Positions 22,053-26,228 of a stretch of 29,429 nt of DNA are shown here, in pieces. Numbering within the stretch: position 1 is the first letter of the stretch; every line of letters begins with the position of its first letter. Where the stretch lies: positions 1 to 29,429 of the IMG/VR virus record IMGVR_UViG_3300025585_000130. One strand, 5' to 3'. The notes beneath the pieces were generated by a model that did not search any database, was not told where the DNA came from, and saw only the letters and a list, made by a program, of their open reading frames with translations. The stretch comes from a virus. The position numbers and the translations under genes are program-made.

Positions 22053-22316
22053 TTAGGCGGTGCGAGCTAGGAATGCCACGGCCTTGCCAGAAGCCAGTTG
22101 AAAGCCGGTGATGTCACCGCACAGCGGGAAGCCGGCCGGCAGGGTGATGCCAGTCCAAGTTCCAGAGATCCCGGTGCCGGTGATCGAGGTGAAGACGGTC
22201 GGCTCGGTCGGAATTACGGCCGAGAAGTTGCCAGTCTGGGCAGCCGTGGTGGTCACCGGGAAGAATCCCTGGCGCCCCATGCTGTATTCCATCGAGATGT
22301 CTGCTTGAACGGCCAT
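22053..22316 (-). CDS. Small structural-region protein, unknown
   Basis: Eighty-seven residues, rich in Thr, Gly and Phe, with no charge clusters (TGTGISGTWTGITLPAGFPL). Probably beta-fold; a head-decoration role like lambda D is possible from position three genes after capsid, but sequence similarity was not recognised. The hairpin at 22334-22367 precedes its start. Confidence 0.6.
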   Translation of the reverse strand: MAVQADISMEYSMGRQGFFPVTTTAAQTGNFSAVIPTEPTVFTSITGTGISGTWTGITLPAGFPLCGDITGFQLASGKAVAFLARTA

Positions 22317-22333
22317 TTTGTTTTTCGGTTAGA

Positions 22334-22367
22334 GGGGAGGCCACCGAGATTTCCCAGCAGCCTCCCC
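22334..22367. terminator. Hairpin downstream of the capsid genes
   Basis: Eight bases GGGGAGGC (22334-22341) pair with GCCTCCCC (22360-22367) around an 18-base loop. On the minus strand no U tract follows, whereas AATTTT follows on the plus strand. It may act as a partial terminator or mRNA stabiliser that keeps capsid message in excess over downstream genes. Confidence 0.45.
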
Positions 22368-22378
22368 AATTTTAACGG

Positions 22379-22555
22379 TTAACCTTTTCGGATCTTCGGT
22401 GCAACGCTGCCCTGTATCCACAGGATCAGCTTCGAGCCCTCTGCAATCTTCGCGGTGTTGAAGTCGGTGCGCTGGGCGGCTGCATCGACTTCGGGACCGG
22501 CGACAATCTTGGATTTGCCTGCCTTGTCCACCGAGATGGTTGTGGCGATTCTCAT
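22379..22555 (-). CDS. 58-residue protein after the capsid gene, unknown
   Basis: The ATG at 22555 is 11 bases beyond the capsid stop; the frame ends with TAA just before the hairpin at 22334-22367. It begins MRIATTISVDKAGKSKIVAG and continues with a short beta/helix mix, ending KLILWIQGSVAPKIRKG. Below common length cut-offs, but clearly coding by position and codon use. It could be a head decoration or stabilisation protein. Confidence 0.6.
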   Translation of the reverse strand: MRIATTISVDKAGKSKIVAGPEVDAAAQRTDFNTAKIAEGSKLILWIQGSVAPKIRKG

Positions 22556-22566
22556 GGTTCAGCCTA

Positions 22567-23703
22567 TTAGGCGGTCACGAGAACTTCGGCCTGCGTGGTG
22601 TCCGCGGCAGCGGCGCCGAACATGATGTCGTAAGACGCCATATGCGAGCGGCTGGCGCGGCTGTACCACACAGACAACAGGGCGGAGAGGCCGTTGTTGG
22701 TGGTGACCGTGCGCTGCTCAATGAACTCGCCGGCGATCATTCCGACCGGCAGGCCGGAGGCGATGGCGATGGAATCAGGGCCGCACACAAAGCCAACGGC
22801 GTTGGTCTCGGCCGAGGTCCAGCGGTTGTTCTCGGCGATCACATCGAAGCCGAACCGGCCGTTGTTGAGCGCCTCGTAGCGTGCATCCGGGAAGGTGCTG
22901 GTCGCCGCGGAGAACTGCAGGCGGGCCAGGTGGCCACCGTCGAGGATCAGGTTCTTCGAGCGGTAGTTCTTCGCCAGGGCGAGGATCGCAGGCAAGTCGC
23001 TGGTGTCGAAGTTCGCGGCCGTGCCGATAGCGGTGGCGGCGCCGTAGTTGCCGGAAACCATCAACGCGGTCAGGACGTCGCTGATGCCGTAGGCGAACAG
23101 GTCCGCAGAGCCGGCGGCCAAGTCGGCCAAGCTGAAGCCCTGGTTGAGCTCCTGCTGCGTCACGGTGAAGTTCTTCGAGATCTGGTTCACGGTGACCGAG
23201 GTGGCGGCCAGCGTGCTGTCGTTGTTGGTTTCCCAGCTCGTGGGGTTGGTCTGGGCGGCGGTTCCGGTGGTGTACTTCTTCACCTGGACCGTCGCGCGGG
23301 GGCGGAGGTTGTCCAGGCCGACGTTGCGGCTGAAGGCGGAGACCAAGGCCAAGCGGTTGGCGGCCACGGTGATCACGGCGTCGGCGAGGTAGTCGACAAC
23401 CAAGCCAGAAGCGAACGTGTTCGCGTTCTGCGGGGCGTGGATGGCGCTTTGGCGCAACAGCTCGCTGTGGTTGGAGACCAGCCAGGAGCGGCGCTCAGCA
23501 CCAGCCTGCATCTTCTTGTGAGCCTCGAGCAACGGGTTGCCGAGGTTCTCGATGCGAACCGGGGCGATGGGCTCCGGAGCGGGGGCGGCGGTGGGAGCCT
23601 TGGCGCTGATGGCAGCGGCAACGGCCTTTGCGACGATGGCGTCGATGTCGAGGGCGGTCGGCGCACTAGAAGCGGCCGCCACCACGGTGTTTGATTCAGT
23701 CAT
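22567..23703 (-). CDS. Nested in-frame start for major capsid protein (candidate)
   Basis: Within the protease-capsid fusion, an ATG at 23703 (residue 330) would yield a 378-residue capsid precursor. It is preceded by CAGACACCACACAACATG, closely similar to the CAA-rich leaders of other genes in this genome (for example CAGCAAACCACAGCAACATG at 10467). The residues around it are low complexity. In lambda the scaffold Nu3 likewise starts inside protease gene C. Residues 330-395 are alanine-rich and helical, as expected of a scaffold or delta segment. Confidence 0.45.
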   Translation of the reverse strand: MTESNTVVAAASSAPTALDIDAIVAKAVAAAISAKAPTAAPAPEPIAPVRIENLGNPLLEAHKKMQAGAERRSWLVSNHSELLRQSAIHAPQNANTFASGLVVDYLADAVITVAANRLALVSAFSRNVGLDNLRPRATVQVKKYTTGTAAQTNPTSWETNNDSTLAATSVTVNQISKNFTVTQQELNQGFSLADLAAGSADLFAYGISDVLTALMVSGNYGAATAIGTAANFDTSDLPAILALAKNYRSKNLILDGGHLARLQFSAATSTFPDARYEALNNGRFGFDVIAENNRWTSAETNAVGFVCGPDSIAIASGLPVGMIAGEFIEQRTVTTNNGLSALLSVWYSRASRSHMASYDIMFGAAAADTTQAEVLVTA

Positions 23704-24690
23704 GTTGTGTGGTGTCTGCTGTGATGTCGGCGCGGTTGTCGCGCCATCGGCGGCAGCGGGAGTGCTGCCGGTCGAAAGTTTGTCCTCAGTCTCGGAGAGC
23801 TCTTGCTCCTGGTCGATCTGAATGGCTAAGGCGGTGAACCAGTCACGGCCAGCGGCGCCTCCCCAAAGGTTAGCGGCCACGTCGGCCGGTGTGTTTGGAT
23901 CGGCCTCGAGGAAGCGCTCATTGCGAGCCCACCAGGCCACAGCCTTCTTCACCTTCTCGATGCTGGGCTCTTCGCCCTTTGCCATGTTGCGGGCCTCAAT
24001 CACGGTGGCCTCTTCCAGACCGTCGCCACCAAGGCCGGCCTCGTATTGCTGAATACCGCGCTCGAGGTTGCGGCGAACAGTCGGAGGGGCAGAGCGGGTG
24101 ACGGCTCGAGGATGCCAGCAGGCAGCCATGGCCGGGAGCTCGGTGCATTTGTCGATCAGGCCGAACTGCATGGCCTCCTGGGCGGTGAACCAAGTCTCGG
24201 CAGTCATTGCTGCCCGAATCTGAGCCATGGGCTTTCCGGTGCACTTGGCATAAATTGAGGCGAGCACTTCGGCATGCTGGTCGAGAGCGTCGGCCATCTT
24301 CCGCATATCCTCCGAGGTGCCGGCCACCATTCCGGATGGGTCGTGAATCATCAGCAGCGAGGCGTCGGCCATTTCCACCGTGTCACCGGCCAAGGCGATG
24401 ATTGAGGCAATGGAGGCAGCAATGCCGACCACCCGGGTTGTTACGGGCGCCTGCCGGCCTCGAAGCATGTTGTAAATGCTCAGGCCGTCCCACACGTTGC
24501 CACCGGGGCTGTTGATCTCGACCACCAGGGGGCCTTGACCGATATCCTGCAGGGTTTGGCTGAAGGCCTTTGCAGACAGGCCCGAACCACCGAACCAGTC
24601 CTCGCCGATTTGGTCGAAGATTTGGATGGTGGCCGGCTCCATGGCCGAGGCCCGGGGCTTGTAGGAAAGCCAGTTGGTTACTTTAGTCAT
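22567..24690 (-). CDS. Prohead protease-major capsid protein fusion
   Basis: 707 residues in one frame. Residues 1-190 are a ClpP-like (S14/S49-related) protease: INSPGGNVWDGL at 60-71, catalytic Ser93 in GIAASIASIIALAGD, His116 in LLMIHDPSG. A module with WWARNERFLEADPNTPADVA and LWGG follows (about 250-290), known from other phage protease C-termini. A Thr/Ala/Gln-rich linker leads to Met330, the start of a scaffold-like helix and the capsid domain ending at 707. The protease would cut scaffold and itself during maturation. The ATG at 24690 overlaps the portal stop by four bases. Such fusions are known; product ratio must be solved by cleavage or by internal initiation. Confidence 0.9.
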   Translation of the reverse strand: MTKVTNWLSYKPRASAMEPATIQIFDQIGEDWFGGSGLSAKAFSQTLQDIGQGPLVVEINSPGGNVWDGLSIYNMLRGRQAPVTTRVVGIAASIASIIALAGDTVEMADASLLMIHDPSGMVAGTSEDMRKMADALDQHAEVLASIYAKCTGKPMAQIRAAMTAETWFTAQEAMQFGLIDKCTELPAMAACWHPRAVTRSAPPTVRRNLERGIQQYEAGLGGDGLEEATVIEARNMAKGEEPSIEKVKKAVAWWARNERFLEADPNTPADVAANLWGGAAGRDWFTALAIQIDQEQELSETEDKLSTGSTPAAADGATTAPTSQQTPHNMTESNTVVAAASSAPTALDIDAIVAKAVAAAISAKAPTAAPAPEPIAPVRIENLGNPLLEAHKKMQAGAERRSWLVSNHSELLRQSAIHAPQNANTFASGLVVDYLADAVITVAANRLALVSAFSRNVGLDNLRPRATVQVKKYTTGTAAQTNPTSWETNNDSTLAATSVTVNQISKNFTVTQQELNQGFSLADLAAGSADLFAYGISDVLTALMVSGNYGAATAIGTAANFDTSDLPAILALAKNYRSKNLILDGGHLARLQFSAATSTFPDARYEALNNGRFGFDVIAENNRWTSAETNAVGFVCGPDSIAIASGLPVGMIAGEFIEQRTVTTNNGLSALLSVWYSRASRSHMASYDIMFGAAAADTTQAEVLVTA

Positions 24691-26228
24691 TCGGTTTTTT
24701 TGGCCCTAGGTTTGCGTTTCTTCGGGGCGGCCACGGCAACAACCTCTTGGATGGGCTCGGCAGGGATTTGTTCAGGCATAGTGCCCGAGGGATCCTCCTG
24801 CATTGCCATGTCGGCCGGCTCCGGTGCGATCGGCTGCTTCTGGGCGGTCGAGATTTGCGAAACGTCGATGCCGTACTTGCCGGCCAGGTCTTGAATGTAT
24901 TTGGCCTGCTGGGCTTTGGACTCCAGAGCCGAACGCCAGTCGATACCGCGGGCGCCGTAAATCTCGTCGTAAGTCGTCACACCGGCCTCGAGCTCGGCGA
25001 GCTGGGCGGCCGAGTTGCGGCCGACATCGACATTCGGAGCCCGGGGCGCCTGGATGGCCACCTCGTACCAGTCGTCCGGTGAATCGCGCAAACTGGGATC
25101 CACCCGGATGGCGTACTCCATGACGTATTCCCATATCCGACGGGCGGCCGAGGCCATCACCTGATGGCGGCTCCGGAACCATACCGACGACATATCCAAG
25201 GCGCCGCGGTAGACGGTGCCCTGCATACCTTCAGGGAATACCAGAACGTAAGGAATGCCGACGCCGGCGCACACCTTTTCGGTCAGGTTGCGCCAATATT
25301 CGCGCATGTTGACGTTGGGGCGGTCGGCTTGGAACTGCTCGAACTCGTCCCCGGTCTTCAGGACTTTGACGGTGCTGCCGAAAATGTTTTCGTAGTACGT
25401 CTGGGCGGTGCCTTGTGATCCGGCCACACCGGAGCGGAGGCTCGTCGCCTGCACCTCACCGGAGCTGGTCTTGATTACCTGCGCCACGCTGGAGGCCAGC
25501 TTGCAGGATTCCATCTCCAGCTTCTGAAGGTCGTCTAGGTCGTGCAGGTCGTTAATGACGCACGCCACGAACGGGAGGCCGCGGAGCTGGCCTGCACGTT
25601 GGGGCTCGTAGATGTGGACGATGGAGTCGGAAGAGATCGACCGGATGTCGGTGAGCTGTCCCTGCTGCTGCTCCTGGCCGATGTAATACGAGATTGCCCG
25701 GCCTGTCTTAGGATCGAACCGAACGCCATCGAAGACGTCCGGCTGATTCTCCTGTCCGGTCGGGGTGGAGACCTGCTGCGGCTCAATGAGCTGCAGGCGG
25801 GGCCGGCCGGTCTCGCCCTTGGTCAGGAGGAGAAAAGATTCGCCATCGTAGAACCAGCCACGGGCAGCCAATGACATCAGGGTGCCGAATGACTGCCGGG
25901 ATCCGATGTCTGGGTAGCGGCACCAGATATCCCACCATTTCTTTGCCTTCAGGTTCCATTCCGGATCCGATGAGGCAGGCTGTACCGAGAAGTTGCTGCC
26001 GACCGTGTAGTTCTCGAAAAGGTCGCCCAGGCGGTTCATCACCGCATTGTTCTGCTCGAAGAACCGGGACTTCCGGACGATCTGCTGGCGGGTGCTGCTG
26101 GTGACATCGAACCGCACCGAGGTGTAGCTGGTGTCGAGGAATGAGCGCCGGATCGAGTTAGACGCGCCCTCGTAACGGTCGACGGGTGCCGACCGGAACT
26201 TGTTTAGGATGGTGTCGAGAAATCCCAT
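24687..26228 (-). CDS. Portal protein, lambda type
   Basis: 513 residues, in the size range of lambda-type portal proteins. The N-terminal SSTRQQIVRKSRFFEQNNAV then MNRLGDLFENYTVG is the family hallmark, and GVGIPYVLVFPEGMQGTVYRG is the conserved stretch seen in lambda gpB relatives. The protein forms the dodecameric ring through which DNA is packaged. A polybasic tail (APKKRKPRAKKTE) ends the protein. It lies between the connector and the protease-capsid fusion, overlapping both by one or four bases. Confidence 0.93.
   Translation of the reverse strand: MGFLDTILNKFRSAPVDRYEGASNSIRRSFLDTSYTSVRFDVTSSTRQQIVRKSRFFEQNNAVMNRLGDLFENYTVGSNFSVQPASSDPEWNLKAKKWWDIWCRYPDIGSRQSFGTLMSLAARGWFYDGESFLLLTKGETGRPRLQLIEPQQVSTPTGQENQPDVFDGVRFDPKTGRAISYYIGQEQQQGQLTDIRSISSDSIVHIYEPQRAGQLRGLPFVACVINDLHDLDDLQKLEMESCKLASSVAQVIKTSSGEVQATSLRSGVAGSQGTAQTYYENIFGSTVKVLKTGDEFEQFQADRPNVNMREYWRNLTEKVCAGVGIPYVLVFPEGMQGTVYRGALDMSSVWFRSRHQVMASAARRIWEYVMEYAIRVDPSLRDSPDDWYEVAIQAPRAPNVDVGRNSAAQLAELEAGVTTYDEIYGARGIDWRSALESKAQQAKYIQDLAGKYGIDVSQISTAQKQPIAPEPADMAMQEDPSGTMPEQIPAEPIQEVVAVAAPKKRKPRAKKTE

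Follow-up and report, generated by a model that had tools for sequence, protein, structure and literature searches.

A conserved probable internal start behind a covarying hairpin in a phage protease–capsid fusion gene

We analysed a stretch of DNA of 29,429 nt from an uncultured virus (IMG/VR record IMGVR_UViG_3300025585_000130, positions 1 to 29,429; called the window in the following), in which a head-maturation protease and a capsid protein share one reading frame. This frame very probably gives two products: a minority of a 707-aa protease–capsid fusion and a majority of a 378-aa capsid protein that would be started at the internal Met330 without a Shine-Dalgarno (SD) sequence. The internal start codon, the leader in front of it, the pairing of a hairpin just upstream and the fused frame itself are conserved among the relatives. 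Protease–capsid fusions pose an old stoichiometry problem, and a family with hundreds of uncultured relatives offers a concrete and testable answer to it. The family is also a rare case where a non-SD initiation signal can be read from covariation.

Results and discussion

Layout of the fused gene

The fused gene lies on the minus strand and comprises the following parts.

22567..24690, minus strand: fused ORF of head-maturation protease and capsid, 707 aa, a single open frame shared by relatives
24142..24633, minus strand: ClpP-type protease domain, residues 20–183 (PF00574, phrog_94 and others, NF045542)
23800..24093, minus strand: helical region, residues about 200–297, seen in the full-length model and with discordant pairwise distances
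22570..23703, minus strand: capsid frame nested in the fused ORF, 378 aa beginning at Met330 (internal Met, phrog_283, HK97-type fold matches)

The genes upstream encode TerS, a gpA-type TerL and a lambda-type portal, and the start of the fused ORF at 24690 overlaps the stop codon of the portal gene. A protease–capsid fusion had been predicted for positions 22567–24690 from the DNA alone, and this prediction is borne out: the 707-aa ORF combines a protease recognised by PF00574 and NF045542 with a capsid half recognised by phrog_283. The Pfam match of the protease half to PF00574 has an E-value of 4.6e-34, and the score against NF045542 (ClpP-related head maturation protease) is 183.1 bits, which passes the curated cut-off of 120. 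Ser93 and His116, the putative catalytic residues of this ClpP-type fold, are unchanged in 15 of 15 aligned sequences.

The full-length AlphaFold model is poor (mean pLDDT 43.6); its sole long stretch with pLDDT mostly between 75 and 90 is the helical region at residues about 200–297. Among relatives, the pairwise distances in this region show a correlation of just 0.42–0.58 with those in other segments, as if it were a module swapped independently of protease and capsid, and it is a possible candidate for a scaffold module. Mosaic exchange is also seen between the two halves of the gene, where the distance correlation of protease half versus capsid half is 0.57–0.69 compared to 0.89–0.92 within halves. 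The helical region and the capsid half are connected by a linker, with 41–50 codons from GRDWF to Met330 and changes by whole codons only. Upstream of codon 313, both the amino acids and the length of this linker vary.

The capsid half is recognised by phrog_283 ('major head protein'), with an E-value of 1.9e-5 in the window and with matches at E<=0.1 in 46 of the 72 relatives scanned. The match starts at residue 94 of the nested protein, which leaves about 90 residues ahead of the recognised core that could be an HK97-like removable N-terminal domain. No capsid match was found in Pfam, NCBIfam or PDB sequences, and tblastn against 50,697 phage records returned none at E<=1. A weak structural model of the capsid (mean pLDDT 50.5) resembles phage capsids and encapsulins among the 50 PDB matches listed (Foldseek probability 0.92–1.00, TM 0.24–0.46). 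Judged by its sequence, the capsid half is a major capsid protein, probably HK97-like, with the fold matches as supporting evidence only. An antisense ORF of 384 aa on the plus strand (22540–23694) spans the capsid half, as is expected in GC-rich coding DNA; the capsid part under it shows no added synonymous constraint.

Relatives and integrity of the fused frame

In IMG/VR, the search with the whole protein gave 536 confirmed matches. We took the best 80 of these 536 and added more search rounds. This resulted in 387 loci, including the window, that were compared jointly and whose contigs are partly redundant. Sets of distinct relatives were defined by sequence, such that a few members are possibly overlapping pieces of one contig, and the sets of 79, 102 and 195 distinct sequences used below overlap one another. 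Two partial matches (L007, L011) were left out of the set of 79 and one locus with an open 3' end (L118) out of the set of 102.

The capsid ORF is present in 383 of the 387 loci, the other four being cut at the 3' end, and protease and capsid share one ORF in 356 of these 383. Among the 27 loci that have the capsid without the protease, 24 lie on contigs that end upstream. The remaining three rows correspond to two contigs. In one of them, a stop codon interrupts the frame within the linker, ahead of the hairpin; the other has a frameshift in the protease. Both keep the hairpin, the leader and the capsid frame, and intact relatives exist. As each of the two contigs (that of L420, on which L299 also lies, and L470) is a single metagenome assembly, the breaks are possibly errors. 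As the fused frame is open nearly throughout and the linker changes length in frame only, it is under selection and the full-length fusion product is probably made. We furthermore searched the family for split relatives, with a separate protease and a capsid starting at the homologous Met, and found none.

When bacterial genomes were searched, the capsid query gave no match and the full-length query gave 17 loci, 11 of which were inspected. These 11 include one complete fusion (L480), one fusion cut by the contig end (L479) and one cut locus (L489); the other eight have a protease ORF of 231–315 aa, and in seven of the eight a further, separate ORF of 150 codons or more comes after it. The closest bacterial match is a contig in an Akkermansia metagenome-assembled genome (MAG), with 55% identity in the protease. 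This contig likewise carries a fusion, in which an A/C-rich run precedes an internal Met located between the protease and capsid parts. Protease matches at E<=1e-25 occur in 14 of the 387 genomes searched around this MAG, and the only close one is in the MAG itself.

The internal start and its leader

The internal in-frame ATG that had been pointed out at 23703 is confirmed as Met330 of the fused ORF. We observed that Met330 is kept in all sequence-distinct fused ORFs of the three sets (79/79, 102/102 and 195/195). It is preceded by the following leader.

23704..23728, minus strand: A/C-rich unstructured leader of 25 nt without Shine-Dalgarno, identified by A+C content compared to controls

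Across the 195 relatives, the mean A+C content of the 25 nt before Met330 is 0.88, compared to 0.50 before 2,918 other in-frame ATGs. The leader in the window has an A+C content of 0.90 over 20 nt, which only 0.3% of minus-strand positions reach. The SD cores GGAG, GAGG and AGGA are absent at −18 to −4 from all 19 minus-strand starts examined in the window, including the internal start (background 11.9% per site).

According to the original prediction, the leader is A/C-rich and of the same type as those of other starts. The composition is as described, whereas the same type occurs at only 4 of the 18 other starts examined in the window (A+C of at least 0.80: orf159 with 0.95, orf121 with 0.90, orf87 with 0.85 and orf127 with 0.80) and 14 fall below 0.80. 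Over 20 nt, the family means are highest at orf159 (0.84), the protease start (0.76), orf87 (0.73) and orf121 (0.71); TerL (0.63), the ORF that follows the capsid (0.59), the portal (0.57) and orf135 (0.50) lie lower. A/C-rich leaders are a minority among the genes of the window and belong mostly to the structural region; the leaders of portal, TerL and orf135 are ordinary. From its position before the tape measure, orf159 is probably the tail tube.

Synonymous constraint around the internal start

The leader is embedded in a conserved block with two hairpins.

23656..23754, minus strand: block of extreme synonymous constraint, codons 313–345, identified by observed/expected synonymous diversity
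23729..23745, minus strand: hairpin P2 (GGCGCG-ACAAC-CGCGCC), a covarying stem present in 195/195, with two-sided changes
23751..23770, minus strand: upstream hairpin P1 (CGGCAGC-loop-GCTGCCG), weakly supported

The linker that codes for the leader had been supposed to be unconstrained. We found the reverse: codons 313–345 are the least variable of the gene at synonymous sites and contain a covarying hairpin. Their observed/expected synonymous diversity is 0.047 in clade A (n=80) and 0.161 in clade B (n=115), compared to 0.57 and 0.59, respectively, for the whole ORF, and in both clades the six lowest 12-codon windows of the ORF begin at codons 315–320. Among 64 distinct close relatives, the 12-codon windows from codons 315 and 316 have no synonymous variation at all, with the ORF at 0.55 of expectation. 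As the two clades differ in the element, the contrast weakens when they are pooled (0.368 for the block versus 0.74, n=195). Ahead of about codon 310, the level of synonymous variation is close to ordinary.

Such constraint could be caused by an overlapping gene in another frame, and one antisense frame is open across the block in 195 of 195 sequences. However, 40% of random blocks have this frame open as well, and both its start codons and its ends vary among the sequences. As openness is common by chance and neither ends nor starts are conserved, we rejected an overlapping gene, which is hardly conceivable as the cause.

A covarying hairpin upstream of the leader

The P2 stem has 5–7 pairs and ends 22–32 nt ahead of the ATG in 195 of 195 sequences. 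In 50 distinct segments, 92% of the cells are paired, compared to 26–48% when the alignment is slid by one to three columns. In the same segments, 52 cells are changed on both sides (GC>AU, CG>UA and CG>AU were seen), a number that none of 500 shuffles matches. Among 128 longer segments, each of the six pairs is kept in at least 125 and up to all 128. Most of the two-sided changes separate clades or subclades from one another, such that few of them are independent events. A hairpin of the size of P2 is found under lax criteria in 514 of 5,504 control windows; the presence of a hairpin alone is thus not decisive, whereas its covariation and position are.

The peptides encoded by P2 differ between relatives: G-V-D-S-T-P, G-K-V-S-L-P, G-M-D-S-M-P and G-V-T-N-T-P occur in one clade and D-G-A-T-T-A-P in the other. 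Owing to base pairing, codons in one arm change along with those in the other, so that selection at the RNA level overrides the protein sequence there. That the pairing stays while the sequence of the stem changes is more in line with an RNA hairpin than with a palindrome in the DNA that is read by a protein.

These changes bear on two further explanations. One holds that only the 707-aa product is made, that the protease cuts the capsid out of it and that the conservation of the linker reflects a cleavage site. This agrees with the fused frame being almost always open, and known phages hold protease and capsid in one gene. However, a cleavage site would constrain amino acids, yet here the synonymous sites are frozen and the amino acids swap between clades in base-paired couples. 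A single product would furthermore yield protease and capsid 1:1. We thus regard the polyprotein as improbable. The other explanation is that the block is a recombination seam for swaps of protease and capsid modules, conserved through homologous exchange, as might be expected from the discordant distances of protease, helical region and capsid. Yet what a seam needs is sequence identity, whereas the stem regains its pairing through two-sided changes; a seam also leaves unexplained why the ATG is invariant and the leader A/C-rich where the sequence differs between clades. A seam therefore seems slightly less probable still.

The second hairpin, P1, has three core pairs that are kept in 127–128 of 128 segments, the outer two of them with two-sided changes; it is longer only in clade A. 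A third hairpin that encloses the ATG, seen in four single folds, was dropped since at least four pairs spanning the ATG occur in just 37 of 128 folds. No Rfam family was found in the window at its gathering score.

A similar arrangement is present at another gene of the window.

22317..22367, minus strand: second hairpin and A/C-rich leader before orf87 (22053–22316), a strong hairpin followed by a 17-nt leader and ATG

The stems of the orf87 hairpin vary in relatives, and its anatomy is the same as at the internal capsid start, but it is intergenic.

Hairpin and leader could alternatively belong to a separate transcript. An internal promoter or an RNase site would then produce a capsid transcript with its 5' end at P1/P2 that is translated from Met330, a possibility that overlaps with the nested start. 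A hairpin at the 5' terminus with a free leader behind it could plausibly stabilise the end of an mRNA, and the anatomy shared with orf87 also fits. Against it, a search that covered the sigma-70 type alone found no such site in 23400–24700, and synonymous variation upstream of the block is nearly ordinary. We consider a separate transcript rather unlikely. More generally, the element of P1/P2 and leader may instead act in transcription or RNA processing or be bound by a protein.

Proposed mechanism

Two starts in one frame remain the preferred reading. Ribosomes that initiate at 24690 would make the 707-aa protease–capsid fusion, and those that initiate at Met330 (23703) would make the 378-aa capsid precursor. 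Given the size of the ribosome footprint, this distance from the ATG puts P2 just past a ribosome sitting there. P2 would close just upstream of this footprint, such that the 22–32 nt of single-stranded A/C-rich leader and the AUG stay exposed. Without an SD sequence, ribosomes probably land on the free A/C-rich leader, which the hairpin may keep unpaired. The capsid would thereby be made in excess of the fusion. A few fused subunits could co-assemble and bring the protease into the procapsid, where it would free itself and mature the shell. We infer the existence of both products, their ratio, the role of the hairpin and the co-assembly from the conservation described above. That the capsid is made separately from a nested start, as had originally been proposed, is hence strongly favoured, albeit on the ground of nucleotide-level constraint at the internal start and not of a lax linker. 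The template may be the shared message, as also proposed, or an RNA that arises by internal processing or from an internal promoter.

HK97-type maturation often trims the N-terminus of the capsid. Thus, an N-terminus far from residue 330 in mature virions would be compatible with the nested start.

Akkermansia muciniphila and another Verrucomicrobia bacterium have been reported to be SD-scarce (PMC10783764). As Akkermansia is SD-scarce and the closest bacterial match lies in an Akkermansia MAG, a Verrucomicrobiota host is plausible, with one MAG as the link.

Comparison to known systems

Protease–capsid fusions and nested starts in head protease genes are already known. What is new here is the capsid as the putative nested product and the covarying hairpin with an SD-less leader inside a coding sequence. 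We found no report of a capsid nested in a protease–capsid fusion in the open-licence literature searched, which omits most subscription journals. For annotation, this means that these phages show no separate capsid gene and that fused head genes are worth searching for internal starts.

In phage lambda, an in-frame nested start in the head protease gene C gives Nu3 and sets the ratio of the two products, and the same is known for I and Z of phage Mu. The window resembles lambda C/Nu3 in having a conserved in-frame internal start (195/195 here). In lambda, however, the nested product is the scaffold and the capsid is a separate gene, whereas the nested frame in the window is the capsid half. 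Retroviral Gag and Gag-Pol follow the same logic of excess, with the structural protein exceeding the protease-bearing fusion. There, the excess is achieved by frameshift or readthrough, whereas the proposed route in the window is a second start.

The gp5 protein of Pseudomonas phage MD8 has been described as a protease–capsid fusion, and the section on it does not mention an internal start (PMC8508860). Like the window, gp5 and its relatives (F10, Fels-1, mEp460) have a ClpP-type protease, a middle region and the capsid in one gene, which also follows a lambda-type portal. The capsid halves differ: that of the MD8 type is PF25209, whereas that of the window has no Pfam match. Because of this difference, the window fails the cut-off of NF045540 ('ClpP-like prohead protease/major capsid protein fusion protein'), reaching 179.9 of 475 in the protease part only. 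In the MD8-type loci (L310:4371-6452, which is phage MD8, and its relatives L311–L398), an invariant Met comes just after the protease. It is accompanied by an SD-like core in all 68 distinct ORFs examined, and a start there would give scaffold plus capsid. Synonymous constraint at this Met is ordinary (rank 131 of 765), which argues against generality.

Fusions of protease and capsid have also been reported for the thaumarchaeal proviruses Nvie-Pro1 and NCAV2-Pro1; the text on these proviruses does not discuss an internal start (PMC6563490). Their proteases are of other families (chymotrypsin-like and S78-type) than the ClpP-type protease of the window.

It is possible, though we would not call it probable, that the window represents a phage counterpart of Gag/Gag-Pol, in which hairpin and SD-less leader drive the excess of capsid while the rare fusion delivers protease and scaffold. 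Other fusions would then use the start signals of their own hosts, namely an SD in L480, an SD-like core in the MD8 type and an A/C leader in the Verrucomicrobiota type. The internal starts of L480 and of the MD8 type are leads and not proof. L480 (L480:2986-5046) is a fusion of ClpP and Phage_capsid in a Deltaproteobacteria MAG, where a perfect SD (AAGGAGG) with a 5-nt spacer precedes the internal ATG of Met262. Capsid proteins of other phages align to L480 from residues 267–305 on, just past this Met (among the 40 of 1,535 matches listed).
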